From a virus, in IMG/VR virus record IMGVR_UViG_3300017963_002423, positions 1 to 26,644 of that record: a stretch of 26,644 nucleotides of DNA; one strand, written 5' to 3'. The position numbers and the translations under genes are program-made. Below are positions 482-26,483 of the stretch, in pieces; positions within the stretch are counted from its first letter, which is position 1; each line of letters opens with the position of its first letter. The notes under the pieces were generated by a model. The model ran no database searches. It was not told the origin of the DNA and saw only the letters and a program-made list of their open reading frames with translations.

Positions 482-689
482 CTTCTCGTATGAAAAGTGT
501 TTCATCATCGTTATAAACTGGATCACGTTTTTCAATCCTTTGAAAAGTACCTTGTGGAGTCATGACAACTTGTCTTTTAATCCCAGGGATTTCTTTTTCA
601 AGCTCGATGATTTTCGGTCTAGTAACATAATATAGAATTATGAGATTTATAACAATTAGAGTTGATAATAAAATAATCAGAACTTGCAC
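462..689 (-). CDS. Small single-pass membrane protein, 75 residues
   Basis: The frame starts at GTG 689, preceded by AGGAGA with 5-nt spacing inside the end of the acetyltransferase gene. The N-terminus is a strongly hydrophobic helix (VLIILLSTLIVINLIILYYV), followed by about 50 charged residues, giving a signal-anchor topology. There is no lipobox cysteine, so it is not a u-spanin lipoprotein. It overlaps the acetyltransferase upstream by 13 bp and the coiled-coil membrane protein downstream, so the two membrane proteins are likely made together. Holin or spanin-like function is possible from position and topology only; alternatively the pair is part of the envelope-modification cassette that precedes it. 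Confidence 0.65.
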   Translation of the reverse strand: MQVLIILLSTLIVINLIILYYVTRPKIIELEKEIPGIKRQVVMTPQGTFQRIEKRDPVYNDDETLFIREDGDRQA

Positions 690-1195
690 TCATCTCTCCT
701 AAGACAATAAAGATAAGCGTCTAAGAATATTCCATTCTTAAAATAATAATCTGGCCTAAAACCAGTCTCTTTAAATCCTAATGATTTAAACATCTTTCTA
801 GCTGGATTACTTTCAAAACTTTCACCCCAAATCAGATTTAAGTTAAGCTCATTAAATCCAAATTTTATCAATGTCTTAAGACCTTTTTGAGCCAAGCCCC
901 TTTTCCTGTATTTAGGAAAGATATATAATGAGAATTCTGCTCTTTGATTCATATGATCAATATCTGTAAGGCCACATACTCCAATGAGCCCATTGGAAAA
1001 GTTATGAAGCTCAAACATCATAATCGATGGGTCTTGATCTTGCCTTTTATACCACTCAGCCTGTTGCATTTCAGATATTTCACCTACCTGCCTACACCAG
1101 CTTCTTACATCAACATCATTTCTAGCAAGCCGATACCTTTCAAGGTTTTTCTCCTTTAAAGGAACCATAAAGACATCTTGGTCATATTCAATCAT
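677..1195 (-). CDS. GNAT N-acetyltransferase, PseH/RimJ-like
   Basis: This 172-residue protein belongs to the GCN5-related acetyltransferase fold, which moves an acetyl group from acetyl-CoA to an amine. The acetyl-CoA-binding motif A is visible as YRKRGLAQKGLKTLIKFGF (Q/R-x-x-G-x-A/G type). The usual C-terminal half-site follows (NPARKMFKSLGFKETG, where an Asn precedes the last helix and the LGF-x-x-x-G turn). Length and layout match the RimJ-like branch that includes PseH, which acetylates the C4 amino group of UDP-linked amino sugars in pseudaminic acid synthesis. It is the last enzyme of the sugar cassette and its ATG overlaps the preceding stop by 4 bp. Its PseH-like role is inferred from neighbours; a protein or peptide substrate cannot be excluded. 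Confidence 0.85.
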   Translation of the reverse strand: MIEYDQDVFMVPLKEKNLERYRLARNDVDVRSWCRQVGEISEMQQAEWYKRQDQDPSIMMFELHNFSNGLIGVCGLTDIDHMNQRAEFSLYIFPKYRKRGLAQKGLKTLIKFGFNELNLNLIWGESFESNPARKMFKSLGFKETGFRPDYYFKNGIFLDAYLYCLRRDECKF

Positions 1196-1389
1196 TTAGG
1201 CTCGCCATAGAATTTATACATTAGCTTTACGACATCAAAAGCATTAATAGGTTGGTTAGGCTTATATCCTGTAAACTCTTGAAAGTTCTTCATCCAGACT
1301 TGAGCCTTTGCATCTGTCTCTTTCCCCATCTTATCAAGATGAACAACAGCGTCCGCTAGCTTGTCGTAAGTTGTAGAATCATTTTCCAT
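1192..1389 (-). CDS. Unknown 65-residue protein within the sugar cassette
   Basis: ATG 1389 is chosen over an upstream in-frame start at 1440 because GGGAG lies 7 nt before it and because it shortens the overlap with the aminotransferase to 11 bp. The product is small, predicted alpha-helical and soluble, beginning MENDSTTYDKLADAVVHL and rich in Lys, Asp and Phe/Trp. It has no Cys, signal peptide or membrane segment. The DSTT near the N-terminus is not the DSL phosphopantetheine site of an acyl carrier protein. Its position between aminotransferase and acetyltransferase, with 4-bp coupling to the latter, suggests a role tied to the cassette, but I cannot assign one. Confidence 0.7.
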   Translation of the reverse strand: MENDSTTYDKLADAVVHLDKMGKETDAKAQVWMKNFQEFTGYKPNQPINAFDVVKLMYKFYGEPK

Positions 1390-2572
1390 TTCTAACTCCC
1401 ATTGAAAAAGGGCTTTGAGGCATTTGGTGCTTAAACTCAAAACCGTCTTTGATTTTATTTAACACTCCCTTGCAAATCTGAAGCGTACTATCCATTTCTT
1501 TAATATGACCAAAAGTGAAGAACCATGACTTGCAAAATAGAATCTTTGATTTTGCCATCTCGGCCATGAAATTTGCAATATTTACATCAGAACCTTTAAA
1601 CACTCCCCTAGTAGGATATCCCTCAATGGTTACAGGTCCGCCAATAGCATTAAATTTATCTATGAATTCTTGACCTTTTTCCCACAGAAAATGGATTTTA
1701 TAGTCTGAGTTCTTTTGGACTAGCTCGCATACCTTATAGCAAGATGCGAGCGATAACACTTCTCCTGCGAACGTAGTAGAAACAAAAACCTGTTTATCAT
1801 CCATGATGTCGGCTTTTGCTCCTACTGCAGCCAATGGTAGACCATTAGCCATTGCTTTGCCAATAACAATCATATCCGGAATGATACCAAATGAATTCGA
1901 TACACTATATTTATCAAACCTAAAGCTTGTTATGACTTCATCAAATATTAACAGCGCCCCTGTATCATCGCACTTCTTTCTTAAGTCCTTAAGCCACTGA
2001 ATCCAGTCTTTATCAGTCCTTGTTATCACAGGTTCGATAATAACCGCAGCAGTATTAGAATCAATAGAGTCAAGGCTGATATACTGAATAATATTAGGAT
2101 CATCAGGCACCCCTTTGTGCGGTAATGTTAGGCTTACAAATTGATCATGATATCCATGATACCCATGAGATACCACTTTAGTCCTACCAGTTGCAGCTCT
2201 TGCATATTTCAAAGCTGCAGAACACGCTTCAGATCCAGACTTCAAAAACTTCCATCTATCAACAAAAACAAATATCTCTTTGAGCTTCTCTGCAGTCTCA
2301 ACTTCAGTAGTAGTGGGCAATGAATGGGAAAACCCACCATACATGTATTTCATAATATGCCTGTTTATATGATCATTGCCATATCCAAGAAAATTAGTCC
2401 CTAACCCACAAATATAATCAAGGTATTTAGCATCTTTTTCATCGTATAAATAAACATCATGACCATGCTTGATATGACTAGGATAAACACCACTAATTAA
2501 CATATCAGGATGCTTTGAATTAGTTAGAGCACCCTGTGAAATACAATTATCAGCTCTATGCTTCCAATTCAT
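1379..2572 (-). CDS. PLP class-III aminotransferase, GSA-aminomutase-like sugar aminotransferase
   Basis: The 397-residue protein has the full fold-type I, class-III aminotransferase pattern. The PLP phosphate-binding loop is SGSEA (112-116) and the aromatic stacking segment is HGYHGYHDQF (136-145). The pyridine-N aspartate lies in FDEV (210-213) and the Schiff-base lysine is K239 in IGKAMANGLPL. The TTFAGE motif (267-271) resembles glutamate-1-semialdehyde aminomutase. Heme synthesis is unlikely in this context. GSA-type aminotransferases occur beside NeuB and SpsF-like cytidylyltransferases in bacterial surface-sugar clusters, where they are presumed to aminate a keto-sugar intermediate. 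The canonical PseC/LegC enzymes are DegT-type, so this is a non-orthologous choice. The start overlaps the cytidylyltransferase stop by 4 bp. Confidence 0.9.
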   Translation of the reverse strand: MNWKHRADNCISQGALTNSKHPDMLISGVYPSHIKHGHDVYLYDEKDAKYLDYICGLGTNFLGYGNDHINRHIMKYMYGGFSHSLPTTTEVETAEKLKEIFVFVDRWKFLKSGSEACSAALKYARAATGRTKVVSHGYHGYHDQFVSLTLPHKGVPDDPNIIQYISLDSIDSNTAAVIIEPVITRTDKDWIQWLKDLRKKCDDTGALLIFDEVITSFRFDKYSVSNSFGIIPDMIVIGKAMANGLPLAAVGAKADIMDDKQVFVSTTFAGEVLSLASCYKVCELVQKNSDYKIHFLWEKGQEFIDKFNAIGGPVTIEGYPTRGVFKGSDVNIANFMAEMAKSKILFCKSWFFTFGHIKEMDSTLQICKGVLNKIKDGFEFKHQMPQSPFSMGVRNGK

Positions 2573-3273
2573 ATAATATAAAACCTATCTGCTGAGCTTT
2601 TGGATTTTGCCTTTTTGGTCTTATCAGAGCATATCTTTTGGTATGTCCTAACAAAATCAAGATCTTCTTCTGTATCTACTGAAAGCTTTAAATGAGATAT
2701 ATCAAGCCTTCCTATAACATTAGCCATCAAATAACCTTGTGGTTTTTGCTTTCTGATAAGTGTTGTTACATGCTCAAGATCAAAGTCATCTTCTGCATTT
2801 TCACACACCCATGAAAGCATCTTTGAAGACATGACCTCGCAGTCCCATCCATCAGGGTGCATCCTGTGATCTGGGTCTACATTAGAAACATAATCAAGAT
2901 CATATTGTACTGCTTTTGTAATATGATGAGAAATTATCTCAGGTGGTATCAAAGGGCAGTCTGAAGTTATGCGAACGACATAATCATGATCAGCAAGCTC
3001 AGAGTACCTAGAAAGAACATTATGCTCATCACCAGTAACAATATATAAATCTCTTCTATGCCTGTATATTTCACCAAGCTTATCCCCTTCAGGAATTAAA
3101 AGAGCAACATCAACTTCTAAGTTTTTAGGACCTCGGTTTAAATACGTTGCTGACTTTTGGGCGGCTTTTATAACCCACTCCAACATCGGTTTTCCGTTGA
3201 TCTCCATCATGCACTTTTTTGGGAGTCTCTGGCTTGTCATCCTTGCCTGAATCCCTATAACCACCCTTGACAT
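2569..3273 (-). CDS. Cytidylyltransferase, SpsF/NeuA-like (CMP-sugar activation)
   Basis: The 234-residue product matches the nucleotidyltransferase family that contains SpsF and CMP-acylneuraminate synthetases, which transfer CMP from CTP to a nonulosonic acid. The nucleotide-binding N-terminus IGIQARMTSQRLPKK (6-20) carries the Q-A-R-x-x-S-x-R-L-P signature. TGDEHNVLSRY (80-90) and TSDCPLIPPEI (103-113, with the metal-site aspartate) follow, then the later DFDLEHVT segment. ATG 3273 is chosen because GGAG stands about 9 nt upstream and the catalytic domain starts right after it. A longer form from 3306 is less likely. The C-terminus has a Lys/Ser-rich tail. It overlaps the oxidoreductase gene by 149 bp in another frame, which is unusual. 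Confidence 0.88.
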   Translation of the reverse strand: MSRVVIGIQARMTSQRLPKKCMMEINGKPMLEWVIKAAQKSATYLNRGPKNLEVDVALLIPEGDKLGEIYRHRRDLYIVTGDEHNVLSRYSELADHDYVVRITSDCPLIPPEIISHHITKAVQYDLDYVSNVDPDHRMHPDGWDCEVMSSKMLSWVCENAEDDFDLEHVTTLIRKQKPQGYLMANVIGRLDISHLKLSVDTEEDLDFVRTYQKICSDKTKKAKSKSSADRFYII

Positions 3274-3859
3274 ATTTTCCACTCCAAATCCTTTTGTGTG
3301 ACTCAATAATGTATTCTCTGTTTTCCTTTGGGTCCTTAAGCCATGAATCTAGCATATCAACATACGACTTATTCACTTCTTCCAAAGTCAGCTTTTTACC
3401 GTTGATCATGCACTTCCAAACAGGGCTGTCGTTGTTAATATAACAATCGCCTTTCGCTAGACCTATGATATTAAGGCAGTCCCATTCGATTCCATCTTTT
3501 CCAGTGTTGTAATAGTCATAATAAGTGGGACCATCACCATCAATACCTCTAATGAAAGCATATTGATTTACCATGGTTAGATTGATATCAAGATCAAGTA
3601 TCGATTCAAGAGCACCAAATTCACAAGATACTGGCTTTTCACATAAAATAGGTACGCCAAGTCTCTGCAATTCTTTAATGTTAAAGATATGTTCTGCAGT
3701 AGGTGAGCATATGATAATGCCTTCTACACCCACAGTGGTCAAACACTGGCCCCAAGTATCTTCATCAAACAACATGGGAGTTTTCCCAAGATACCTTAGA
3801 ATAGCTTGATATCTAGTTCCCATAGATCCTGAAGCACCAATTATTGCTATATTATCCAT
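3125..3859 (-). CDS. Short Gfo/Idh/MocA-type NAD-dependent oxidoreductase
   Basis: This 244-residue protein starts at ATG 3859 (AAAGGG 6 nt upstream; 8-bp overlap with the dehydratase). The NAD(P)-binding Rossmann start is GASGSMG (8-14). CSPTAEH (51-57) and the family-defining EKP (74-76) follow, so the nucleotide-binding half is intact. The C-terminal half is much shorter than the usual 330-360 residue family. The last 49 or so residues are basic, low in predicted order and out of frame over the next gene, so they may be a read-through tail after loss of an earlier stop. In sugar clusters these enzymes oxidise or reduce a sugar ring position; the substrate here is unknown. A frameshift or assembly error near 3270 is an alternative. 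Confidence 0.8.
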   Translation of the reverse strand: MDNIAIIGASGSMGTRYQAILRYLGKTPMLFDEDTWGQCLTTVGVEGIIICSPTAEHIFNIKELQRLGVPILCEKPVSCEFGALESILDLDINLTMVNQYAFIRGIDGDGPTYYDYYNTGKDGIEWDCLNIIGLAKGDCYINNDSPVWKCMINGKKLTLEEVNKSYVDMLDSWLKDPKENREYIIESHKRIWSGKYVKGGYRDSGKDDKPETPKKVHDGDQRKTDVGVGYKSRPKVSNVFKPRS

Positions 3860-4673
3860 TGAACACCCTTTCAATCATCCCCACCAAAACATCCATAGGA
3901 ATCTGTATGGCTGGATCATCAGACCTGTAACAATAATCATGGTTAGATTCTAATACTTCATGAATCTTCTCACCTGGCCTTATGCCAGTCTCAACAAGAT
4001 CAAAAACACCAACACCCATATACGCTGCCATGGCACCAGCGACTTCAACAACTTTAGCAGCTCCCATCTCAGGTATATGTATTCCTTTGATTAATGATCT
4101 TTTAATCATGAATTTTGCAGCATCATCTATATGAATCCAGAAACGAGTCATATCTGTATCTGTAATATATACAGCATTTTCCTTTTCAAGGGTTTCTTTA
4201 AATGAGTGAAGAACAGAACCACGGCTTCCAAGAACATTACCCCAGCGCATGACAGAGCCGCCCTTAGAAAGAACATATTTCTCAGCCATCATTTTAGAGG
4301 CACCATACGCATTAATAGGCAAAACAGCTTTATCAGTGCTCGAAAAAATATACTTAGCACCATTTTCAATCGCCCAATTACAAGTATTAATAGTTCCATT
4401 TGTATTCACATCATAACAAAATTCAACGTTATACTCTGCAGTGTCAACATGCTTCATGGCTGCCAAATTATAGACTATTTTAGGCTTAACCATTGTTTTC
4501 CAGTGATGATCTCTTACATCACCTACAATATATTTAAACCCTGGGAAAAGCTTCTGCATCTGTTTTTGCTTAAGCTCACACCTTGAAATAATGCAAACTT
4601 CATCTTTAGACTTTTCAAATTGCCTAGCTAATGCATTACCTAAAGTCCCGGTTCCACCAAATATTACAATCAT
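3852..4673 (-). CDS. UDP-N-acetylglucosamine 4,6-dehydratase-like SDR (PseB/CapD type)
   Basis: The 273-residue product is an extended short-chain dehydrogenase. The NAD-binding motif is GGTGTLG (6-12). The family marker AAMKHV (71-76) is followed by SSTDKA (111-116) and the catalytic Y-x-x-x-K at Y123 and K127. RWGNVLGSRGS (143-153) and TDTDMTRFWI (171-180) are hallmark segments of PseB/FlaA1/CapD enzymes. These dehydrate UDP-GlcNAc to a 4-keto-6-deoxy sugar, with C5 epimerisation in PseB. This is the committed first step of pseudaminic acid and related sugar pathways. ATG 4673 is preceded by GAGGG and overlaps the upstream stop by 4 bp. PseB and CapD activity cannot be told apart by eye. 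Confidence 0.9.
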   Translation of the reverse strand: MIVIFGGTGTLGNALARQFEKSKDEVCIISRCELKQKQMQKLFPGFKYIVGDVRDHHWKTMVKPKIVYNLAAMKHVDTAEYNVEFCYDVNTNGTINTCNWAIENGAKYIFSSTDKAVLPINAYGASKMMAEKYVLSKGGSVMRWGNVLGSRGSVLHSFKETLEKENAVYITDTDMTRFWIHIDDAAKFMIKRSLIKGIHIPEMGAAKVVEVAGAMAAYMGVGVFDLVETGIRPGEKIHEVLESNHDYCYRSDDPAIQIPMDVLVGMIERVFNG

Positions 4674-4882
4674 TTGACATCCCTCGGCGACCATTGAAAC
4701 ATCTCAGATGGATTTGAAATCTGAATAGTGCAGACAGCACCGCCATTCAACAACTCAGCCAATAGATGATCTGCATCTTTTGTAAGTTGAACTTGAGGCT
4801 CTTTTTTCTTTTTAAGGTATAGAAATAAGGTAAGTAAGTTTGAAATGCCAAGTAAGGCACAAAATCCAATTAAATATTCCAT
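4670..4882 (-). CDS. Small membrane-anchored protein heading the sugar cassette
   Basis: From ATG 4882 (GGGA about 7 nt upstream) the protein is 70 residues. It opens with one hydrophobic helix (YLIGFCALLGISNLLTLFLY), then KKKKE on the cytoplasmic side by the positive-inside rule, then about 40 soluble residues ending PSEMFQWSPRDVK. It is the first gene after the cassette promoter and is coupled by 4 bp to the PseB-like gene. It could anchor enzymes at the membrane or act on the host envelope; the family is not recognised. A TTG start 12 nt further upstream is possible but weaker. Confidence 0.65.
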   Translation of the reverse strand: MEYLIGFCALLGISNLLTLFLYLKKKKEPQVQLTKDADHLLAELLNGGAVCTIQISNPSEMFQWSPRDVK

Positions 4883-4910
4883 AAAATATCCCAAACAGTA
4901 ATTTGTAAAA

Positions 4911-4940: not shown

Positions 4941-5320
4941 TTGCTTTCTAGTTTAGCCCAATTATCGCAAGCCATAATCTGAATCCATTTTATGACCTTA
5001 ACTTCTTCCGGCTTTGAAAACCAATTAGAAAGATCCTTAGAAGAATAATAATCGCCCTTATAGTCTTCAGGCTTATCTTTATTGTTAAGCCATACAATGT
5101 CAGGCTTGTACCAATCAACTATGTTGAAATCATTAGCTATCTCAATATAATCTTCATAAACTTCAAATTTAGGATAAAAAGGCTTACCATCGTTTGTAGA
5201 CCATTTATCAGATTTAGCATCGTATACAATATATTGACTTTGATCCCATCCTTTATATTTAAATCTCTTTTGATCTACTTCCTTGTTTAACTCTTTTATT
5301 TTTTCTTCAAAGTTAGACAT
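4937..5320 (-). CDS. Unknown 127-residue protein after the fibres, possible fibre chaperone
   Basis: ATG 5320 has GGGA about 6 nt upstream and follows the fibre stop codon directly. The protein is charged, rich in Lys, Asp, Tyr and Trp (for example WDQSQYIVYDAKSDKWS), with no membrane segment and no cysteine-rich motif. Small proteins encoded just after a tail fibre often act as fibre assembly chaperones or cap the fibre tip. That is a positional guess; I see no Caudo_TAP-type signature. An ATG at 5332 in the same frame would add four residues but lies inside the fibre coding end. Confidence 0.6.
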   Translation of the reverse strand: MSNFEEKIKELNKEVDQKRFKYKGWDQSQYIVYDAKSDKWSTNDGKPFYPKFEVYEDYIEIANDFNIVDWYKPDIVWLNNKDKPEDYKGDYYSSKDLSNWFSKPEEVKVIKWIQIMACDNWAKLESN

Positions 5321-5322
5321 TT

Positions 5323-6501
5323 TTAATCCCATTCAGATGCTATAGTTGTCTCATCATTGATTTTCTCTATTGACCACCAAGGATAAAATATAGTGCTATT
5401 TGTTCCTGCAACAATATCTAGATCAAATGAATTTGAAGCACTAGAAAATGAAAGTATATATGTGCTTGTAATTCCTAAAACGTTTATCTGCTCTCCACTT
5501 AAAGATCCAGTAGAGTTATATCCAACATACCAATCATTTGCTCCAGATAAGGCTACATCTGCATTGTTTAATTGCGGCTGCATATAACAAGCTTCATCAG
5601 GCGCTTGCCTCCATTGCTGTGCTCCAACCGTAACTCTATAAACACCTTGAGGTATTGATGTCTTTGAAAGCTGACCAGTAGATGATGTGTTGTTATATGT
5701 GCTGGATGATTGATTTACTAGATACTTCCAAGTTTTCTTAAGAGCTGTTATATGCCACTCAGTCTGATCACACTGAACAGTTACAGACTCATTAATATAA
5801 TCAAGGTCTATGGTGGCTTCACCATCTATAGTTTCAGCGTTTTCACCGTCTACAGTAACTTTACCTGAAGCTGAATCTACCTTCTTAATAGTAATGATCC
5901 GGCCATCGTTATCAGCAGCGGTCGGTAAAGTAATCGTTCTATTAGTAGTTGATGTAGTCACATAAACAGATGATACTCCATCTATATCTGTTATCGGATA
6001 TGCTGCAGACTTTGCTTCATTATAAGATGCAAGTGTTTTTATCTGTGCACCGTTTGTATCGAAATATGTGAAACCACCTAAATCTAGCTCAGTACCATCT
6101 GCAGTTGATTTTAAATAAGTTGAAGAACTTGAATTGAAGAATACAGAGCCACCATCTGTTACAGCATTATCAAGACTTATAGAACGCCAGCACTGTGCTG
6201 ATGATCCTAGTGTGTAAGTGGCATCTGTTTTTGGCTCTATATTTGAAGCAACATATCCTATGAAGGTGATGTCATCAGACGTCGCATTCCCTAAAGTAAC
6301 CGCACCATTAAATGTCGCTGTGCTTGCGAAAGTGGCTGCCCCATTGAATTGCGCAGCACCACCAGCAGTCAATGCACTTATAGTGAAGTCCTTGGTCCCA
6401 TCAGAAGTACCATTAATAATGTCAGTGAAATTCTGATTTATCTCTGATGCTTCTAAAGTAGTGCCATTAGAAAATGAATATGTAACACTAATATTAGCCA
6501 T
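5323..6501 (-). CDS. Tail fibre-like protein 1, 392 residues
   Basis: The protein begins MANISVTYSFSNGTTLEASE and is low in charge and rich in Thr, Ser, Gly, Asn and Ala, with many short beta-strand repeats (for example AATFASTATFNGAVTLGNAT). Residues 1 to about 250 form a module shared with the next-door paralogue, including TAADNDGRIITIKK and VDGENAETIDG. The last 140 residues are unrelated and probably carry the receptor- or glycan-binding tip. Such beta-repeat N-termini with exchangeable C-termini are typical of phage fibres in aquatic phages. ATG 6501 has AGGA about 7 nt upstream. It is a virion protein by style and position; exact attachment is unknown. Confidence 0.8.
   Translation of the reverse strand: MANISVTYSFSNGTTLEASEINQNFTDIINGTSDGTKDFTISALTAGGAAQFNGAATFASTATFNGAVTLGNATSDDITFIGYVASNIEPKTDATYTLGSSAQCWRSISLDNAVTDGGSVFFNSSSSTYLKSTADGTELDLGGFTYFDTNGAQIKTLASYNEAKSAAYPITDIDGVSSVYVTTSTTNRTITLPTAADNDGRIITIKKVDSASGKVTVDGENAETIDGEATIDLDYINESVTVQCDQTEWHITALKKTWKYLVNQSSSTYNNTSSTGQLSKTSIPQGVYRVTVGAQQWRQAPDEACYMQPQLNNADVALSGANDWYVGYNSTGSLSGEQINVLGITSTYILSFSSASNSFDLDIVAGTNSTIFYPWWSIEKINDETTIASEWD
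5752..6501 (-). repeat. Fibre module copy A (paralogous 5' segment)
   Basis: This coding segment is paralogous to 6858-7577. The encoded residues share the same start, the INGTSDGTKDF segment, TDGTELD-GGFTY-like segments and the VDGENAETIDG motif. DNA identity is locally near-perfect, for example the 25-bp stretch at 5921-5945 equals 7036-7060. It indicates a tandem gene duplication or a recombination hot spot between the fibre genes. Confidence 0.8.
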
Positions 6502-6509
6502 GATGATTC

Positions 6510-7577: not shown

Positions 7578-7585
7578 AAATCCCT

Positions 7586-10847: not shown

Positions 10848-10859
10848 TTTTACCTCCTT

Positions 10860-14537: not shown

Positions 14538-14545
14538 AAGACCTT

Positions 14546-15378: not shown

Positions 15379-15405
15379 AATATCCCTCAAAATATAAAAT
15401 AAATA

Positions 15406-15675
15406 TTAGTGTCCAAAAACCATCAAATAAAACGTATCTCCAGATGCAACACCAGTAACTGCAACGGTTCCAGCAGTAGCAGTCCCTGCAACACCTTCGT
15501 TCATTCTTGTAAGCCCTGGTGCAGAAGCCATTGACTTTGGAGTCATAGCAACAGCATCAACTGATTTCATGCCAGTAACTATCGTCCCAGCAGCAGCATC
15601 AGCAGTGCAAGAATAAAATATTGCCTGCTTGTTACCCATGTTCATTCGTTCTAATATGTCATTATCATAAGCCAT
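15406..15675 (-). CDS. Small Ala/Thr-rich virion-type protein, 89 residues
   Basis: The product begins MAYDNDILERMNMGNKQAIF and then becomes Ala/Gly/Thr/Val-rich with short strands (GTATAGTVAVTGVASGDTFY), ending LMVFGH. A ribosome binding site (AAAGGG) lies upstream of ATG 15675. Size, composition and place among head genes suggest a capsid or collar surface protein. I do not recognise the family. It is directly downstream of the glycosyltransferase gene, which makes it one of several possible acceptor proteins. Confidence 0.6.
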   Translation of the reverse strand: MAYDNDILERMNMGNKQAIFYSCTADAAAGTIVTGMKSVDAVAMTPKSMASAPGLTRMNEGVAGTATAGTVAVTGVASGDTFYLMVFGH

Positions 15676-15687
15676 TTTTCTTACCCT

Positions 15688-16701
15688 TTAAAAAAGAATT
15701 TTCTTCGTCGCGCCACTTGGATCTTCAAACTGCTCGAAAATATGATTGCTCATATTCATCATATCAAGACATTTATCTAAATCCATTTGCTTAATAGTCC
15801 ATAGATTACCTTGAGCATATGATCCCAAACAACCGCCTTCTGTGCAATTGATATATTGACCTGGGACGTTCAAAGAAACCCAATCGAACCAACACTTGAA
15901 ATTATAATAACTCTGCCAGGTTTTTACTTTATGACCAAAAACATTATAGGCATCAATACAGTGACCCATATTCATGTCATACTTAGAATCCCATGAATGG
16001 AATCTTTTATCACCTGGATCAAAACTAAAATCAGCGCCTACAAATATTGTTGTTGGACATCCTAGCCAGCCCTTAGCAAAGTAAAGACAAGCTCCAAGAA
16101 CATTGCCACCATTAGAAATCATAGCCCTAAAAGGCTCTATATCATCAATCTCTTTTTCTAGTTCAACATTTGGTAAAGGTGCATTATATAAAAACACCTT
16201 ACCTTTCCATTTCTTGAAAAGCTCAGGATTAGTCCCAATATAAGCAATTAAAGTGCGGTCTTTGGTTAGTTCCCAATACTCTTCAGGTGTTTTAGATCCA
16301 CCTTCAGAGACTTCTTCAAGAACTACAGGACCAGCATCTAAACTTACATAATAATCAGGAGCAACACCAGCATCTTCAAAATAATGAAAATTATGCAAAC
16401 ATGAAACCAGTGGTATGCCTTTTCTGTCCCTTAACTTTTCATAATTAAACTTCAGTGAAGGACCAGAACCTGCAATAATACAAGGCTTATACAAATGCTG
16501 GTGGTACACTGAACCGATAGAATGCTTTTTGAAAGACCCAAAGTGTTTTTTGTTTTCTCTTATATTATTAAGCCAAGTGTTTCTCCAAGCAGCAATCGTC
16601 GAATCATCGTTAGACGTTGAATTTGACCTTAACTGCTGAGGTGCCACAGGTGGCGACATAATATAATTCTGATACTCACAAATATACTCACGTACTCTCA
16701 T
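15688..16701 (-). CDS. DUF115/Maf-like glycosyltransferase
   Basis: The 337-residue protein has the pattern of the DUF115 (MptE-like/Maf) family. GSGPSLK (78-84) follows a hydrophobic strand (CIIAG). The segment SNGGNVLGACLYFA (196-209) leads into a strand ending FVGADFSFDPG (220-230) with a His in KRFHSW (232-237), and NCTEGG comes later. Maf proteins transfer nonulosonic acids such as pseudaminic or legionaminic acid from CMP-sugars to Ser/Thr of flagellin in the cytoplasm. There is no signal peptide or membrane helix. Its place among head genes, in a genome with NeuB, a CMP-sugar synthetase and a PseB-type enzyme, suggests it glycosylates a phage protein. Family membership is fairly clear; acceptor and donor are inferred. 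The start has GGGA upstream. Confidence 0.8.
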   Translation of the reverse strand: MRVREYICEYQNYIMSPPVAPQQLRSNSTSNDDSTIAAWRNTWLNNIRENKKHFGSFKKHSIGSVYHQHLYKPCIIAGSGPSLKFNYEKLRDRKGIPLVSCLHNFHYFEDAGVAPDYYVSLDAGPVVLEEVSEGGSKTPEEYWELTKDRTLIAYIGTNPELFKKWKGKVFLYNAPLPNVELEKEIDDIEPFRAMISNGGNVLGACLYFAKGWLGCPTTIFVGADFSFDPGDKRFHSWDSKYDMNMGHCIDAYNVFGHKVKTWQSYYNFKCWFDWVSLNVPGQYINCTEGGCLGSYAQGNLWTIKQMDLDKCLDMMNMSNHIFEQFEDPSGATKKILF

Positions 16702-16732
16702 AAAAACATCCCATCGGTAAAATCATAAAAAA

Positions 16733-17221
16733 TTAGTAGCAACAAATATAAGCAGAACCACTAGCACTAGAAACAATAGCTTCCAAAGCTTTTCCGATAG
16801 CCGGGGCTAGGTTACCAGTAGTGTTAGACACTTTTTGGAAGTCACCATTAGCTCCCACTTCAAGTAGATCACCAGCAGCAACTGTTCCAGATGATGCGTT
16901 CATTTCAACAGGAGTTATTCCCCTTGAAACTAGCCACCCATAAGTTCCAGTTGTAAGTGTTGCATTTCTACAAACACCGACAACCAAATCAGCGCTTGTT
17001 ACGGCTGAAACTGTTACTGAGTATCCTGAAACTCCGGACTGCAGAACAGCACCAAATCCAGGATCAATTTGCTCACCACCGTCATTATAAACAAAAACGT
17101 ATTCACGACCATCAAACCATGCCCGCTGTCCAACTTCAGGATCTCGGCCAAGATTTAAAGCAGATGTTACATTTGAAGGCCCGCCAGAAAAGGCTACAGG
17201 ACCTGCAGAATTAAATCCCAT
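16733..17221 (-). CDS. Capsid decoration / head-surface protein, 162 residues
   Basis: The gene lies immediately after the capsid gene, with AAAGGAG before ATG 17221. The protein is Gly/Ser/Thr/Val-rich and beta-rich. It holds a cap-like fold pattern (QRAWFDGREYVFVYNDGGEQ; PGFGAVLQSGVSGYSVTV; LVVGVCRNATLTTGTYGWLV; VAAGDLLEVGANGDFQKV). These 'binds/caps the hexamer' beta-barrel proteins usually decorate HK97-type shells in aquatic phages. Many surface Ser and Thr residues make it an attractive acceptor for the Maf-like enzyme encoded next. It ends in YICCY. The decoration role rests on position and composition. Confidence 0.7.
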   Translation of the reverse strand: MGFNSAGPVAFSGGPSNVTSALNLGRDPEVGQRAWFDGREYVFVYNDGGEQIDPGFGAVLQSGVSGYSVTVSAVTSADLVVGVCRNATLTTGTYGWLVSRGITPVEMNASSGTVAAGDLLEVGANGDFQKVSNTTGNLAPAIGKALEAIVSSASGSAYICCY

Positions 17222-17245
17222 GATAAAAACTCCTTTAAAGTTAGA

Positions 17246-17464
17246 TTAAGCAGTAAGAGCTGTTAAGCCACCGTGTAATCTGTTGTTAGAAGATCCTAAT
17301 GCACCCATCCAAAGAATCCTAGAAACCTTAACCTGCTGGTTTATCGGCTTTTGGAACGGCTCGAAGCTCATGTTTCTCTTAGGATGATAGAACAAGTGCA
17401 AATGCGATAAGTTCAACATGAACATATGATTTGCTGGACAATGACTATCATGAACAATTGGAAT
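17246..17464 (-). CDS. Major capsid protein, 3' exon (C-terminal 72 residues)
   Basis: This exon continues the capsid reading frame after the intron. It starts IPIVHDSHCPANHMFMLNL and ends LHGGLTALTA. The first residues correspond to the [V/I]P-[I/V]-x-D-x-x-CP-[A/S] strand that in HK97-fold capsid proteins directly follows the FNG-type loop at the end of the 5' exon. FYHPKRNMSFEPF, the QKPINQQVKVSRILW strand and the LGSSNNR end segment complete the A-domain and C-terminal strand. Read alone, the frame could start only at a GTG (17467) with no ribosome binding site, which argues against a separate gene. The spliced product would be 234 plus 72, 306 residues, a normal length for the family. 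Confidence 0.85.
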   Translation of the reverse strand: MPIVHDSHCPANHMFMLNLSHLHLFYHPKRNMSFEPFQKPINQQVKVSRILWMGALGSSNNRLHGGLTALTA

Positions 17465-17723
17465 CACTTTTGTTACCCTTAAGGCTTTTTATCCCTAAGT
17501 TCTAACAGTTTCTTTTCCTGTTAGGTCAGCATACATTTTCATCTCAGTGAGATGCCGGACACTCGTGGCAGAATTATATTCTTTTTCAAGGTTCATCTGC
17601 TATGCGTTACGATGGTCAGAATTCTTTGCTTTTCTGACTTATCTCGGTATTGGCGTTTCAGCGTCTACCGATATTGCCCAGTCATAATCAAGCAGCTCAC
17701 GCAGCAAGACGGCCTTCCGTTTG
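17465..17723 (-). ncRNA. ORF-less group I self-splicing intron in the major capsid gene
   Basis: The 259-nt segment has no reading frame of its own. On the transcript the 5' exon ends AUGGU, which pairs with GCCGU (17713-17709) as P1, with the required U-G wobble at the splice site; C17723 extends the stem. P10 lies in exact register: intron GGAA (17718-17715) pairs with 3'-exon nucleotides +2 to +5, UUCC. P3 is UAUGACUGG (17686-17678) with CCAUCGUA (17615-17608), one bulged C. P7 is AGAAUU (17625-17620) with AAUUCU (17575-17570). A GGGCAA sits between P3 and a 6-bp P4/P5-like hairpin (17671-17644). The intron ends in G17465. Further perfect hairpins occur at 17554-17540 and 17524-17502. Splicing restores the frame, joining FNG to IPIVHDSHCP. 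P8 is not convincingly paired by eye. Confidence 0.85.
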
Positions 17724-18425
17724 ACCATTGAACATTAAGTTCTGGAATCCACCTTCTGCAGTCTTGCTATCCATAAAACGCTGTTGCGGCTGCAATAAAG
17801 CGTAGTAAGAATTATAAAGACTACGAGTTGTGACACCATAATTTGGCATTTCAGAATCAACAGAAGCATCTTGAAAAACGCTGTTCATTGCAGAAATTGA
17901 AGTTGTAGTTGTAGAACTATCAACTTGTGCTTGCCACCATGAGTTAGTCGCTTGACTAATCCCACCAACAGTCTGATCAACTGCAACAATGTCTCTCAAA
18001 CCAATAATAGATTTTGCTGTAGTTCCATCAGAGAAAAGACCAGTGCCAAGAGCATCTTTCAAAGTCTTTTCAGCTATCTCCATCTTAGACTTAAGAAGGT
18101 TTACAACAGCAGCATCACCACTATTCTTCAACTCATCTTCTTCTGAGATAGTTACACCAGCAAACAAGCTCTTCCAGTCATACTCAGCAGAAGTGATGTT
18201 CTCGACATCAACAGTGCTTAGAGTATCTGCACCAGAATACCAGCCGTTTGTGGCTTGTGCGTAGTTAAGTGGTAAAGTAATCTTTGTACCACCAGAAATA
18301 GACTTGTAAGATCCTCCATCCTTTATTTTCTTAAGTAAAGGATTTGAATCAAAGATGTTATCAAACATCTTAGGCATAATATACTTGTGTGTGATCGCAT
18401 TCAGCTGATCAATAGAAACCGCCAT
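17724..18425 (-). CDS. Major capsid protein, 5' exon (N-terminal 234 residues)
   Basis: The HK97-fold coat protein forms the phage shell. The exon begins MAVSIDQLNAITHKYIMPKM with GGAGG 7 nt before ATG 18425. It includes the E-loop/P-domain region (GGTKITLPLNYAQATNGWYS; YDWKSLFAGVTISEEDELKN), the spine helix (AAVVNLLKSKMEIAEKTLKD) and the A-domain start (LYNSYYALLQPQQRFMDSKT, then FQNLMFNG). It lies after the scaffold and before decoration genes. Without splicing the frame reads on for eight residues, QTEGRLAA, and hits TGA at 17697, giving a truncated 242-residue protein lacking an essential C-terminal part of the A-domain. No separate maturation protease is visible in this block. Confidence 0.88.
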
Positions 18426-18445
18426 GGTTTACCTCCATAATTGTT

Positions 18446-19396: not shown

Positions 19397-19437
19397 GCAA
19401 AAACATCCTTAAAAAATATTCAATTGTAAAAAATATA

Positions 19438-19719
19438 TTAGACTGGAGTACCTTCAGGCTGATCTACTGGTACTGCCTGCGGACCTTGATCCTGTGGTGC
19501 GCCGCCGCCGCTCATAGTCTGAATAAGCTGCTCATACATGCTCATGATTTGCTCAACCATTTGCATAGCTTCAGGTGGTGCATCTGGAGTTGCTTGAACC
19601 ATCTCACCTAAAGTCTGAAGACCTTGGCCTAAATCCTGAAGAAAAGTATCAGCTCCGCCTTCTGCAGGTGCTCCTTGCATCTGCTCTTGTGGTGCTTGTT
19701 CGACCATTCCATCAGCCAT
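19438..19719 (-). CDS. Small Gln/Pro-rich protein between portal and scaffold
   Basis: The frame is read from ATG 19719, 6 nt after GGAGG; a GTG at 19722 is the alternative. The 93-residue protein is acidic and rich in Gln, Met, Pro and Gly (for example QAPQEQMQGAPAEGGADTF), with one helical centre (QMVEQIMSMYEQLIQTMSGG). It overlaps the portal stop region. Small proteins of this kind recur between portal and scaffold in aquatic phages; no function is known. A role in scaffold or portal assembly is only a positional guess. Confidence 0.7.
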   Translation of the reverse strand: MADGMVEQAPQEQMQGAPAEGGADTFLQDLGQGLQTLGEMVQATPDAPPEAMQMVEQIMSMYEQLIQTMSGGGAPQDQGPQAVPVDQPEGTPV

Positions 19720-19721
19720 CA

Positions 19722-21542
19722 CTAACCTCCTTGTTGAGCTGAAGCAGCTTCTGCCTCAGCTTGTTTGCGTTCAGCAAGCCTTTCAAGAACTCGCTCTTTA
19801 TTTGGGTAATCAATCTGAGATAAGACTTCTTCTTCGTCTATAATGCCTCGATCGAACAAGGCGTAAGACTTCTGCTCTTTATCAGCCACAGCAAATGGCA
19901 ACGAAGAGCCAGTGTTTATCTTAACATCAAATCTTCCAGCAATAAGAAACTCCTTGTCATCAGATGATACAGCTATATCACCGTTTTCCATCTCGACAAA
20001 TTCTCTGATGACACCAACCTTTTGAGCTTCACCAGTTTCAGGATCTTCTCTGTTCTCAACTCTAAATTTAAAGAATTGAGTGGAATCATCATTGTTAGTA
20101 ACTCTAAATACACGGTTCTTTGTATATTTTTCTAGCACGATATCTGAATACTGCCTAGCAAAATCTCTCATCATGGCATCAAGGTTTCGCTGCTTTTGTT
20201 TTATACGAGTTCTTGCGGCATCCATCAGCTGCTCGATAGCACTAGCAGCAGTAATAGAGGCAGGTGCTTCACCCCTAGTGACGTCTTGATTACCAGCCAC
20301 GCCATTGAACCAAGTCTCAAGCCTATCGACCAAAGAAAGAGCTGTCGGTGAAAGCTGAACGCCGATCTCTCTTCTAACCTCCGATCCTGGTTCTTTCTCA
20401 ACAACTAATCCCGTTCTATTCACAAGCTTGTGCGGATTGATTCCTGAAGAAGTGTCTACAATCCAAACAGGATTACCCATTAAGTTCAATATCTCCAAAG
20501 AAGCATTTAATATCTTGTTGAATGCTCTTTGCGGTGATTCAAGTTGCTCAACTTCAGAAACTCCAAAGAATTCCCTGGGAAGCATGTAATTTATATATTT
20601 AACAAAAGGAAAGTTGCCAGACGTTTGAAGCTCTTCTTCTTCAAGCAAGATACCATTCGCTATTTTGACAACTCTGCCAAACGGGTAAACTTTCTTAACA
20701 ATTACTTTAATATTGCCTTCTTCATCTTCTTCTTCAACTTCTTCAGTGTCATCTGGCTTCAGCCACGCCGTAAGAAGTAAAGTCTTCTGACTTTCTCTTG
20801 TCTTAGAAGAATCAAATGTAGCATCAGCCATATCAAGATCTGAATTAGACTGTCTTAACTGGTATTCGTTCAAAGCTGCCTTGGAAGACTGAATTGACTC
20901 GTGAATATCTGATTTAATCTTATCTTTCCATTCAGGATACTTCTTCTTGAGTCTGTCAGTATCAATAGGCTCAGCTTTTATAAAAGTATCTGATCTCTTA
21001 CCATTGACTTCACGAGCTTCATTATCTGGATAAAGATAAAACGGGTCTTCTGATTCAAAGACTGCAGATCCAACGCCGTAATCTACATCAGGATCATAAT
21101 GAACACTCCCCATACCGTGTCCATAAATATAGCCATCAAGAATGATTTCCGAGAGTGGCACTAGCCAATTATTTCTCTCCCAATCTGCATCAAGTAATTT
21201 ATTTAATACTTCTGCAAATTGCTTATCACTAGGCTCTTCAGGAATAAATACAGGCTTAGGTCTAGCATTGGTTTGCAAAGGCATGTTCGATTGTACTGTT
21301 TGCCAAATTAGATTAATAACTTCTTTTTGTCTGTGTTTTGGCATTCTTAAGTTATGCCAGTGGTCACCACGAAACATCTTATAATTATGTAGCCAGTTCT
21401 TGTCATACTTAGAGCGGTGCTGCTTAAGTCGCTTGAACTCCTTCATTACAAATTGAACAGTTTCAATAGCCTCTGGGCTTTGATCGAGATCGGGCTTAGT
21501 ATCAGGCCCTAATGCACCATGTTCAGGTATGTTATCGCTCAT
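19722..21542 (-). CDS. Portal protein, P22-type
   Basis: The 606-residue portal forms the dodecameric ring at one capsid vertex through which DNA is packaged. The N-terminus has the helical wing pattern (FKRLKQHRSKYDKNWLHNYK, then MFRGDHW). The typical NLIWQTVQSNMPLQTNARPK stretch, WERNNWLVPLSEIILDGYIY, and an Asp/Gly-rich strand GSVHYDPDVDYGVG follow. The later clip and stem region includes LESPQRAFNKILNASLEILN and GVAGNQDVTRGEAPASITAA, a strong portal hallmark. The last 100 residues are charged and Gln/Ala-rich. The start overlaps the zinc-ribbon gene by 4 bp. This family is used by short- and long-tailed phages, and the absence of tail-tube genes favours a short tail. Confidence 0.88.
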   Translation of the reverse strand: MSDNIPEHGALGPDTKPDLDQSPEAIETVQFVMKEFKRLKQHRSKYDKNWLHNYKMFRGDHWHNLRMPKHRQKEVINLIWQTVQSNMPLQTNARPKPVFIPEEPSDKQFAEVLNKLLDADWERNNWLVPLSEIILDGYIYGHGMGSVHYDPDVDYGVGSAVFESEDPFYLYPDNEAREVNGKRSDTFIKAEPIDTDRLKKKYPEWKDKIKSDIHESIQSSKAALNEYQLRQSNSDLDMADATFDSSKTRESQKTLLLTAWLKPDDTEEVEEEDEEGNIKVIVKKVYPFGRVVKIANGILLEEEELQTSGNFPFVKYINYMLPREFFGVSEVEQLESPQRAFNKILNASLEILNLMGNPVWIVDTSSGINPHKLVNRTGLVVEKEPGSEVRREIGVQLSPTALSLVDRLETWFNGVAGNQDVTRGEAPASITAASAIEQLMDAARTRIKQKQRNLDAMMRDFARQYSDIVLEKYTKNRVFRVTNNDDSTQFFKFRVENREDPETGEAQKVGVIREFVEMENGDIAVSSDDKEFLIAGRFDVKINTGSSLPFAVADKEQKSYALFDRGIIDEEEVLSQIDYPNKERVLERLAERKQAEAEAASAQQGG

Positions 21543-21904
21543 GATCTGATCTCTCCATGATCCATATTAACAGAATCCCACCTAGCCCGTTGTTTCTCTT
21601 GCCTATCATTATCAAACTTTTTATGTATTTTGTCTATTGGCTCGTTGCCAATCTCTTCCATGCCGCGCTTCTTAGCTTCTTTTCTAGCCTGAGAATTAGA
21701 TGAGAAATGCTTTCCAAATGCAGGGTTATAATGCGGCGTGTTCCAGTCTGCAGCCGATGATTTATCTATTCCTTGGGAACAAGATATTGTTCTGTCTGAT
21801 ATATTACCACATTCAGGACATAACTCTTCATCATCAATCTGTCTCACAGACTTAATTATTTCAAACTCATGCGAGCAATTACTACATAGGTACGGATATA
21901 TCAT
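21539..21904 (-). CDS. FmdB-like zinc-ribbon protein
   Basis: The 121-residue protein has an N-terminal zinc ribbon with two C-x2-C pairs (C7/C10 in YLCSNCSHEFE and C29/C32 in CPECGN), the pattern of FmdB-family regulatory or structural ribbons. The rest is basic and polar (KEAKKRGMEEIGNEPIDKIH), likely helical. FmdB-like proteins recur between terminase and portal genes in aquatic phages; proposed roles include transcription control and packaging, but none is established. It starts 3 nt after the terminase stop and is coupled by 4 bp to the portal gene. Confidence 0.8.
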   Translation of the reverse strand: MIYPYLCSNCSHEFEIIKSVRQIDDEELCPECGNISDRTISCSQGIDKSSAADWNTPHYNPAFGKHFSSNSQARKEAKKRGMEEIGNEPIDKIHKKFDNDRQEKQRARWDSVNMDHGEIRS

Positions 21905-21907
21905 ACA

Positions 21908-23248
21908 TCACCAATCATACTCTTCATTATCAAAACCTTGTTTGAGTAAATCATCTACAACATGAATCCTTGTGTCAATTGGATTCTGTTTTGGGGTAAC
22001 AGGTGCTCGCTTACTGAACATCGTCCTTGAAAGATGCATAGCATAAATCGGATACCTAAAAGCATCCATAGCATGATCATGTTGCTTCACTGGCAAAGTT
22101 TCTTTCACATCCTTATCTGCTGTCACATCCTCTTCTTCAGGATAATGATACATGGATATTTCATCTATAAAGTGCGGTGCTGCATCTGAAAACACATGAA
22201 ATTTATCTGTTGCTATCAACTCATAAGCAGCATCGATTCCAGCGCGAATATCATTATCAGCAGGAATAGCCGTAAGACGAGCTTTATTAAATTCGGCGAT
22301 ATTTGCAGGTGATGACGGGTCACAGTAGAACCTCTCTATATTATAAAGAATCTTAAGCCTTTCAGCAGCTTGCACTATCTCAGATATACGTCTGTTGGAT
22401 TGATAAAACTCATCGACTAAGAAAACACCATCATTAGGAGTAATAGCAAAAACCAATATAACAGCAGGATTAGTATAACCCCAATCAACACCAGCCACAT
22501 ACATTGTCTTAGGCTCTAATCTTGTGCGGTCAATCACATGATTATCTTCATCAAAGCATCCATAAACCAAACCCTCAATTTTATGGAATTCACCACCGTA
22601 GATCATATTGAACCGTCTTGGGTCCATAGTCTTTTTCTTACGCTGGAACTCTTCTTCAGGAAAGTAAGGATTCTCTCTTGATTGTGCCTGAATAATCAAA
22701 ACATCATCTTGCAAACGTCCCTTGTGATAAGGGCGGATATAATCAGAATAAATCCAGTTAAGAGTATATGGGGAAGTAGTGTATATAATCGGAGCTTGCT
22801 TAACTGAAGCCCTTGCTTGGATATTCTCGTGAAAGTAAAGCGAAAATAATCCAGCTTCATCACCCCAAACACCGCGAACATTGGTGATACCTACAACACT
22901 GTTGGCATCAGTACCGGTACGCATCCAGCAGGTCCCGCCGTTATGCATTTTAAAGCAAGCGTCGCCTTTTGAATACTCACCACATCCTTGCATAACTCTT
23001 AAAAACTCAGGTAATGTCGCTTGTTGCATGATCTTGTAGGTAGGTGCTGCAATAACGAAATTATCTTTCTCATCGATATGTTTGTGCATAAGAGCTTTGA
23101 TGAACAAAGCACCCACAGTGGTCTTTCCCCACTGAATGCCAGTAGCACATATCGTGATAAGACTATTTGAAAATAGAGCCTGATCTTGCTTATCACTATG
23201 AGGTCGCCAGATATCACTCAGAGCAAACAACCTTATACTCAGCGCCAT
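21908..23248 (-). CDS. Terminase large subunit
   Basis: The 446-residue packaging motor combines an ATPase and a nuclease. Walker A is TGIQWGKTT (36-44), a variant loop with Trp before GKT. Walker B with the catalytic glutamate is GVWGDEAG (D130, E131). The C-terminal RNase H-like nuclease acids are visible as D255 (GVDWGYTNP), D310 (YCDPSSP) and D391/D395 (HDHAMDAFRY). Length is normal. ATG 23248 overlaps the upstream gene by 35 bp without a clear ribosome binding site; a TTG a few codons later is a possible true start. It packs DNA together with the portal encoded downstream. Confidence 0.95.
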   Translation of the reverse strand: MALSIRLFALSDIWRPHSDKQDQALFSNSLITICATGIQWGKTTVGALFIKALMHKHIDEKDNFVIAAPTYKIMQQATLPEFLRVMQGCGEYSKGDACFKMHNGGTCWMRTGTDANSVVGITNVRGVWGDEAGLFSLYFHENIQARASVKQAPIIYTTSPYTLNWIYSDYIRPYHKGRLQDDVLIIQAQSRENPYFPEEEFQRKKKTMDPRRFNMIYGGEFHKIEGLVYGCFDEDNHVIDRTRLEPKTMYVAGVDWGYTNPAVILVFAITPNDGVFLVDEFYQSNRRISEIVQAAERLKILYNIERFYCDPSSPANIAEFNKARLTAIPADNDIRAGIDAAYELIATDKFHVFSDAAPHFIDEISMYHYPEEEDVTADKDVKETLPVKQHDHAMDAFRYPIYAMHLSRTMFSKRAPVTPKQNPIDTRIHVVDDLLKQGFDNEEYDW

Positions 23249-23540
23249 CTGCAGCAGCAGCAGTTAGAACTAACTTCATATGTCTTGTATAAGCATAATC
23301 TTCAAGGTCTATCATCATGTTAGATATTCCTGAAGCAACAACTGCAGTAGCACCGCTGTTGTACATATTCTTGAAAGTACCATCTTTCTCTGAAGCGCCA
23401 TGAATCTCAGCAGCACCAGCAATAGCAGAAGGTGTTTCTAAATAGACCTTCCTGTAAGATCTCCCAAGATCTATAGCATTGGACTCTGTTGCACCACTGG
23501 CAACAGTTAAAGTAAACACTCTTGTATCAAGCTGACTCAT
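23214..23540 (-). CDS. Small beta-rich virion-type protein, 108 residues
   Basis: The sequence starts MSQLDTRVFTLTVASGATES and is Ala/Thr/Val-rich. Its strands include RKVYLETPSAIAGAAEIHGA and ISNMMIDLEDYAYTRHMKLV. It ends in KVVCSE. The pattern fits a small beta-sandwich such as a fibre, collar or decoration protein. GGGAGG precedes ATG 23540, which overlaps the NeuB stop by 4 bp, and the 3' end overlaps the terminase start. Its place between a nonulosonate synthase and the terminase is unusual; a virion role is inferred only from composition. Confidence 0.6.
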   Translation of the reverse strand: MSQLDTRVFTLTVASGATESNAIDLGRSYRKVYLETPSAIAGAAEIHGASEKDGTFKNMYNSGATAVVASGISNMMIDLEDYAYTRHMKLVLTAAAADGAEYKVVCSE

Positions 23541-24451
23541 ATATACCTCCCTGTAATAGTCTGACCTTGTAAAATCTCTCTCTTAGCAACCTTGCCTTTG
23601 AGATATGATGTTAGCCTAAAACCTTCTGTCTCTGGCTTAAGACTTCTATAATAACCAAAGTTCTCACCATAAATTAACTTTTCACCAGCCGTAATCTTCT
23701 TTGTAGCAACACACCTACGGTTGTACATTGAAACCATTGGCATCTCATCAGGGCTAAGCAGGTTAAGTCTTTTCTTGCCCTTAAGCTTAGACATCATGTC
23801 CTGAAATTCTTTGTGACTAAGCGAATGCGGTGCATCCGGCGTATCAGTATAATCCAAGAAGTTCACATGCTTCTCGAAATACAAGACACCAAGATCTCTT
23901 GCTAGTATTGGTGTTTGATACACATCCAAAGAATGATCTGAAACACCAATCTTCTTAGTAAATATCTTCAAAACCTCAAGCTTATCTAAATCAGTACGCT
24001 TGGCTGGATAAGCAGATTCACAGTACATAAGCACTAATCTTCTGTTGTCGATCCAAGTTAATGCTTTTTCAACTTGCTCTTCTGTGTGTCCACCAGTGGA
24101 AAGAAGTATAAGCTTGTGCAAGTCCTTTGCTTGCTTAAGAAGATCTTCATACAACATATCTGAGCTAGCAATCTTGATGAAATCAATATACTGCGAATTA
24201 GCTCTAAGCGTCTCAGGGTTGAAGAACGTGCATGAAAATCCGATCCCCATATTACGCGCATATTTCGATAGCTGTGGGATCTCATCCAAATTAAGTATTG
24301 GCTTATAACCGAGATTCATTCCATACATATCTCTGTCTGTGAAATACTGAAACTTCACATAATCAGCGCCAGCTTCTGCTGCCATGTCTATTGACTTAAA
24401 ACAGTCTTTAAGGTTCTTTACATTAGAACAAATCTCAGCAATAACTTTCAT
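23537..24451 (-). CDS. NeuB-family nonulosonic acid synthase
   Basis: The 304-residue protein matches NeuB/PseI/LegI synthases, which condense phosphoenolpyruvate with a six-carbon N-acetylated amino sugar. The TIM-barrel signatures are in order: AEICSN (5-10), GADYVKFQYFT (28-38), KIASSDMLYEDLL (93-105), LSTGG (117-121), CESAYPA (144-150), GVSDHS (169-174), EKHV (193-196) and DAPHSLSHKEF (206-216). A C-terminal SAF/antifreeze-like domain (about 245-302) closes the active site in NeuB dimers. It is about 40 residues shorter than typical NeuB. The ATG overlaps the previous stop by 4 bp. It is separated by about 19 kb from the other sugar genes. Which nonulosonate it makes cannot be told by eye. 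Confidence 0.9.
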   Translation of the reverse strand: MKVIAEICSNVKNLKDCFKSIDMAAEAGADYVKFQYFTDRDMYGMNLGYKPILNLDEIPQLSKYARNMGIGFSCTFFNPETLRANSQYIDFIKIASSDMLYEDLLKQAKDLHKLILLSTGGHTEEQVEKALTWIDNRRLVLMYCESAYPAKRTDLDKLEVLKIFTKKIGVSDHSLDVYQTPILARDLGVLYFEKHVNFLDYTDTPDAPHSLSHKEFQDMMSKLKGKKRLNLLSPDEMPMVSMYNRRCVATKKITAGEKLIYGENFGYYRSLKPETEGFRLTSYLKGKVAKREILQGQTITGRYI

Positions 24452-26442: not shown

Positions 26443-26483
26443 CCATTTCCGCCCATTAACTATACATCTTCAACGATATCAAT

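Follow-up and report, generated by a model that had tools for sequence, protein, structure and literature searches.

The IMG/VR virus record IMGVR_UViG_3300017963_002423 (26,644 bp, GC content about 0.38; the whole of this stretch is called the window below) carries a NeuB-family synthase gene, a Maf-type glycosyltransferase-like gene and a cassette of five further sugar enzymes, with which the group of phages it represents probably makes a sugar of the nonulosonic acid type and links it, in the host cytoplasm, to a structural protein of the phage. The best explanation of this gene set is that the glycosylation known from flagellin, by Maf enzymes and nonulosonic acids, has been moved into the assembly of the virus particle. 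The single reactions, the identity of the sugar, its acceptor and its effect are what we infer from the gene families, a modelled fold, conserved catalytic motifs and the positions of the genes in related phages.

The window proteins were searched against Pfam, NCBIfam and PHROGs, and folds were compared with the PDB by Foldseek after AlphaFold (AF2) modelling. The seven genes proposed in a first-pass annotation, made from the sequence alone, were all recovered on the minus strand, which carries nearly all the identified genes, and Pfam and NCBIfam confirmed each of the families named there; in particular, the NeuB and DUF115 proteins fall in the NeuB and PF01973 families. The placement of the synthase and the transferase inside the late virion block was likewise correct. 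The NeuB gene (23537..24451; Pfam NeuB 5.1e-37) lies directly upstream of the terminase block, and the virion genes recognized around it and the Maf-like gene include the terminase large subunit TerL (21908..23248; PHROG 1.9e-44), the portal protein (19722..21542; PHROG 3.5e-51), an SU10-type adaptor and the major head protein (17264..18425; PHROG major head 2.4e-50), whose gene holds an intron-like insert. Downstream of the capsid gene are found a 162-residue head-associated protein of the decoration or scaffold type (16733..17221; PHROG head scaffolding 3.5e-5), with homologues in 17 of 21 near-full related records, and then the Maf-like gene (15688..16701); both head proteins are candidate acceptors. 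The remaining five enzymes form a tight cassette at 677-4694, after fibre-like genes. It consists of a PseB/FlaA1-like UDP-sugar 4,6-dehydratase of the SDR type (3852..4694; Polysacc_synt_2 5.7e-57), a short Gfo/Idh-like NAD oxidoreductase (3125..3862), an SpsF-like CMP-sugar cytidylyltransferase (2569..3273; CTP_transf_3, PF02348, 3.1e-15), a HemL-like class-III PLP aminotransferase (1379..2572; Aminotran_3 1.8e-33, best NCBIfam match PRK06209) and a PseH-like GNAT acetyltransferase (677..1195; Acetyltransf_3, PF13302, 8.9e-15). A small conserved open reading frame (ORF) lies between the last two (1192..1440), with a homologue at the same place in the related loci L024 and L107.

The assignment of the transferase as a DUF115/Maf-like protein is borne out by sequence and by fold. 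PF01973 matches it with 72 bits against a curated cut-off of 34.6 (6.7e-20) and is the sole Pfam match in 16 of 16 homologues. The AlphaFold model of the window protein (pLDDT 90.6, pTM 0.90) has as its best PDB match the Maf glycosyltransferase 5mu5 (E 9.3e-11, TMq 0.53), and the same structure ranks first in a search of the PDB with the sequence profile (E 0.0045), through the region of the GSGPSL motif, which aligns to 5mu5. These features, together with an accompanying CMP-nonulosonate pathway, are shared with the transferases of flagellin such as 5mu5 of Magnetospirillum and the Maf of C. botulinum (PMC11339370). Maf enzymes glycosylate Ser/Thr residues of flagellin and are not strict in their choice of donor (PMC11339370). 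The identification as a Maf-type transferase is thus supported by sequence comparison and by the modelled fold, and the transfer of a CMP-activated nonulosonate to Ser/Thr residues is predicted from it. Matches of the Maf profile to the spike protein G of phiX (E 0.35-0.9) were judged to be due to chance.

The strong co-occurrence of the sugar genes in related phages agrees with what the first-pass annotation had led one to expect. IMG/VR holds many related contigs, with proteins 30-65% identical. When profiles were mapped onto them, 34 of the 35 loci extending far enough had NeuB on the same strand, at most 2.5 kb upstream of the terminase; Maf lay no more than 1.5 kb downstream of the capsid gene in all of the 72 loci concerned. 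The NeuB neighbour is also present in loci that were retrieved through their terminase (L027, L028, L030-L035) and chosen without regard to Maf or NeuB. Moreover, the cassette order PseB, Gfo, cytidylyltransferase, aminotransferase, small ORF, GNAT is repeated downstream of tail or fibre genes. The repetition of this order and content across dozens of phages, with proteins 30-60% identical, shows that the association is not a matter of chance. Of the 26 long records (26-40 kb) that bear Maf, 24 have NeuB, 23 the aminotransferase, and 22 each PseB and the cytidylyltransferase; the records that fall short include G021, G027 and G034, which are only 26-29 kb long. When the ORFs of the 21 near-full records were clustered, Maf and the aminotransferase were found in all 21, GNAT in 20, PseB, the cytidylyltransferase and NeuB in 19 each and Gfo in 17, a low count because overlapping ORFs hide some copies. 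Apart from virion-type genes these are the only widely shared clusters, every other gene, replication genes included, being present in a minority of the records. Direct terminal repeats are the usual sign of a closed genome, and six records with such repeats (114-127 bp) carry Maf, NeuB, PseB, the aminotransferase and the cytidylyltransferase. The median pairwise identity of Maf (52%) equals that of the capsid (52%), next to 47% for TerL and 42% for the portal. The pathway and its transferase therefore seem to have been kept for a long evolutionary time, and more faithfully than the replication genes.

From a biochemical perspective, the proteins of the set resemble, in their sequences, the enzymes of a pseudaminic-acid-type pathway. 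NeuB exceeds its Pfam cut-off of 22 with 128 bits, and a profile built from 17 phage NeuB proteins aligns over the full length with pseudaminic acid synthase 8h2c (3e-49) and with NeuB 1xuu (6e-33). The closest solved relative of the PseB-like protein is FlaA1 (2gn4, 7.9e-64), and its active-site motif STDKA...Y..K is kept in 10 of 10 aligned phage sequences. The best PDB match of the cytidylyltransferase is 6oew, named 'Cytidylyltransferase' (2.6e-20), followed by KdsB. In the aminotransferase, the GKA of the PLP-lysine region is invariant in the seven phage sequences aligned. The short Gfo/Idh protein (its length in relatives is about 205 residues) has matches that are weak in NCBIfam and, at 1.1e-4, slightly under the curated cut-off in Pfam; its EKP motif is conserved and its AF2 model (pLDDT 83) finds WlbA (WbpB) dehydrogenases as the best PDB matches (E 2e-8). 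WlbA is a sugar-nucleotide 3-dehydrogenase that works together with an aminotransferase. By analogy with this partnership, it is plausible that the Gfo protein and the aminotransferase form a pair that installs the amino group. A strong membrane segment was found in none of the pathway proteins.

Two observations on the aminotransferase gene may be added. Its reading frame is enlarged to 587 residues in L109 (7636-9399) and to 548 in L110 (1321-2967) by an in-frame low-complexity insert at about residue 125-130, either an intron that is read through or an unusual insert. Furthermore, an intein is one conceivable reading of the aminotransferase gene in G013 and G008.

A number of findings weigh against a complete phage-encoded system of this kind. 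None of the window proteins reaches the NCBIfam cut-off for a Pse equivalog: NeuB has 97 bits against 340 for PseI, the dehydratase 173 against 408 for PseB (TIGR03589), the GNAT protein 56 against 93 for PseH (TIGR03585, still its best NCBIfam match), and the cytidylyltransferase, which does meet PF02348, 24 against 206 for PseF. The DegT-type aminotransferase PseC, searched with its curated model, is absent from all 26 long records, the positive controls being matched in 13 of 14 genomes and in G064; the hydrolase PseG is also absent from the 26, its curated model matching positive controls in 5 of the 14 genomes. Six of these 26 records have terminal repeats. As regards the transferase, the cellular Maf enzymes have a multidomain architecture with N- and C-terminal domains, whereas the phage protein is a single central domain with short extensions, 337 residues compared with the 632 modelled in 5mu5; it carries a distinctive N-terminal extension, in which W39, W43 and N50 are conserved, and is linked to the capsid and terminase genes (to the capsid gene in 72 of 72 loci) and not to flagellin genes. 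The tally of Maf is conditional, since most long records were chosen for having this gene; the records chosen by TerL agree with it. Finally, the set is not whole in every phage. G008 is without PseB only, and G018 (35.8 kb, with the same ORF at both ends) has kept Maf and lost NeuB, PseB, the cytidylyltransferase, Gfo and GNAT, its remnant of the aminotransferase showing GAAN where other phages have the lysine-bearing GKAM, so that the PLP lysine is gone. In this genome an ORF resembling FkbM methyltransferases by eye (9041-9727, L191) lies near the terminase, where NeuB would be expected.

With neither PseC nor PseG in any of the 26 records, the phages have a route that is incomplete or out of the ordinary; either the host completes the sugar, or it is something other than ordinary pseudaminic acid. 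A complete CMP-pseudaminate pathway in the phage was rejected for the same reason, and the proposal that PseB, an aminotransferase, PseH, PseI and PseF would suffice for CMP-pseudaminic acid is not supported as it stands. The PseB-C-H-G-I-F pathway of the Campylobacter/Helicobacter type has in common with the phage set the PseB-like, PseH-like, NeuB/PseI-like and CTP-transferase genes; unlike it, the phage set has a class-III aminotransferase and a WlbA-like Gfo protein, lacks PseC and PseG, and contains an SpsF-like enzyme instead of a curated PseF. The broader claim of the first-pass annotation, that the phage makes its own nonulosonate and attaches it to a protein, is upheld as regards the gene set, the Maf fold and the co-occurrence, and weakened by the two missing steps.

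One possible account, which falls short of being the favoured one, is that the phage genes top up or reroute the CMP-pseudaminate of the host, which would contribute PseC and PseG, and that ordinary pseudaminic acid is placed on the virions. The two steps missing in 26 of 26 records are in line with this account, and so is G018, which indicates that Maf can persist after the loss of phage synthesis and fits a supply of CMP-sugar by the host. The bacterial relatives of the enzymes also speak for it. A profile search of bacterial genome contigs with the aminotransferase returned HemL only (L105) and was uninformative; the bacterial context was found with the cytidylyltransferase profile, within the phylum of the L105 genome. 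The nearest cytidylyltransferases found are located in Acidobacteriota Pse loci (L245, L249, L253), with the aminotransferase type of the phages and with NeuB, GNAT and PseB close by, and the annotated loci have curated PseB, PseC and PseG. Unlike the phages, these loci add PseC (L245 and L249; DegT in L253) and PseG (L249). Since true PseC and PseG occur there alongside the class-III aminotransferase, the latter is not necessarily a substitute for PseC. Against this account, the standard Pse route has no step for the class-III aminotransferase or the WlbA-like Gfo protein, both of which are retained about as widely as the other members of the set. The phage aminotransferases form one old clade separate from those of bacteria, so the gene was not recently acquired by the phage of the window. 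A more specific form of the phage-made sugar hypothesis is put forward tentatively: the core non-virion module of a widespread family of uncultured phages might be a route of their own to a previously undescribed nonulosonate-type sugar, with a dehydratase, a class-III aminotransferase and WlbA-like dehydrogenase replacing PseC, and no PseG, together with a minimal Maf reserved for the head of the virus.

The sugar might instead be put on the surface of the host (LPS, capsule, flagellin or pilin), where it would block superinfection or the adsorption of progeny to debris. This is less likely than modification of the virion, and on the whole rather improbable. Prophage enzymes that alter nonulosonates of the host capsule are known, namely epaA/epaB in Acinetobacter (PMC12053666), and NeuB and Maf would serve equally well as ordinary late genes. 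However, the constant placement of Maf beside the capsid gene (72/72) and of NeuB beside the terminase (34/35) means that they are presumably expressed with the virion genes. Neither a flippase nor a ligase was noted in the gene clusters shared by the 21 near-full records, the pathway proteins have no strong membrane segment, and the protein that Maf enzymes modify is flagellin (PMC11339370).

A reading of the PF01973 protein as a pterin diphosphokinase of the MptE type, or as some unrelated enzyme in the accidental company of NeuB, is very unlikely. The Pfam domain is named MptE-like, and the second fold match of the model is the HPPK of Methanocaldococcus (8sd5, E 3.5e-5); 5mu5 is nevertheless the best match by sequence profile and by fold, five orders of magnitude ahead in the latter, the next match is human ST8SiaIII (1.1e-4), a sialyltransferase that uses CMP-sialic acid, and the linkage with CMP-sugar genes is constant. 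MptE was accordingly rejected as the best reading, 8sd5 ranking below Maf by both measures. Least credible of all is a sugar that modifies the phage DNA or serves as a small molecule, with a non-protein acceptor for Maf: phage sugar transferases often act on DNA, according to literature cited in PMC12619734, but no base-modification gene was recognized among the widely shared genes and Maf is a family of protein O-glycosyltransferases.

If the sugar is made by the phage and placed on its own particle, the steps would be as follows. Dehydration of a UDP-amino sugar by the PseB-like enzyme would be followed by the addition of an amino group, the work of the class-III aminotransferase with the possible help of the WlbA-like oxidoreductase, and then by acetylation through the GNAT protein. 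A hydrolase that is supplied by the host, or is not recognized as such in the phage, would release the sugar from UDP; NeuB would condense the freed sugar with phosphoenolpyruvate, and the SpsF-like enzyme would form the CMP-sugar. The single-domain Maf would then transfer the sugar to Ser/Thr residues of a head protein, either the capsid or the adjoining 162-residue protein, before or during assembly. More broadly, the acceptor may be the capsid, a decoration protein or a fibre.

Few phages are known to have glycosylated virions. In mycobacteriophages, glycans are found on capsid and tail proteins (Freeman et al., 2023, cited in PMC12619734). This likewise places glycans on particle proteins, as proposed here; a phage-made nonulosonate is not described in the passage of PMC12619734 concerned. 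The prophage genes epaA/epaB, which make 8-epi-pseudaminic acid, also act on a nonulosonate, with the difference that they modify the host capsule and only epimerize a sugar made by the host (PMC12053666). A literature search, which covered few subscription papers, did not turn up any account of a nonulosonate synthase encoded by a phage together with Maf. Among 50,697 named phage records there was no match to Maf and one weak match to NeuB. Stenotrophomonas phage BUCT555, Myxococcus phage Mx9 and ct52p938, which are podovirus-like, have the same capsid family at 34-35% identity and the same late-block order of terminase, portal and capsid; they differ in having no Maf match and no annotated nonulosonate or Maf gene in that block, a GNAT being annotated in BUCT555. 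The findings suggest that uncultured phages of the short-tailed type would build and wear a sugar coat of their own. If so, it becomes testable why phage particles gain a coat resembling sialic acid (stability, adsorption or recognition), the minimal Maf could be useful for studying the choice of acceptor, and a new nonulosonate may emerge.

The major capsid gene, a candidate acceptor, is split in the window by a 259-nt insert devoid of ORFs (17465-17723, minus strand), the removal of which restores the frame of uninterrupted relatives (LMFNG|IPIVHDSH). The last base of the 5' exon is U and that of the insert is G, as in group I introns, and the fold of the insert has a z-score of -3.3. The Rfam intron search had no match in the window, and one homologue of the insert gave a weak match to Intron_gpI (15 bits, E 0.18); the insert is probably a divergent group I intron. 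Homologous inserts, 72-77% identical, are present at capsid codon 10 in L147 (about 5282-5530) and in a fibre gene in L177 (about 20392-20634), where they are bounded in the same way (U|...G|) and their removal restores the frames, so that the three read as a mobile intron type. That a sequencing error had split the capsid gene was rejected, because the insert has homologues elsewhere, in different genes of further phages, and its junctions are seamless. The same RNA core (CGTAACGCNTAG...GAATATAA) is found in unrelated phages (L225 at about 8161, L228, L220, L227, L224 and L221); by eye, some copies adjoin HNH-like or LAGLIDADG-like reading frames, and in L225 and L228 the core is inside the terminase gene. 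In L033, about 1 kb (8995-10001) splits the terminase gene between residues 42 and 43, and portal genes are split in L010 and L014.

Some minor features of the window can also be reported. A second contig (L001) is identical to its right-hand half (13933-26644) but for a 62-bp deletion in the portal gene (window 21014-21077, L001 7011-7012), which is a strain variant or an assembly fault. On each side of the sugar cassette there is a small ORF with a hydrophobic N-terminal segment (4670-4894 and 462-689); the former has relatives in 15 of the 21 near-full records, and in L107 and L109 small ORFs of this kind come after GNAT. Two proteins of the late block (15013-15390 and 21539-21904), each present in 17 of the 21 records, have C2H2-like and zinc-ribbon-like cysteine patterns. 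Lastly, two adjacent fibre-like genes (5323-6501 and 6510-7577) are tandem paralogues with near-identical N-termini (MANISVTY.F.NGT), where most relatives have a single copy.

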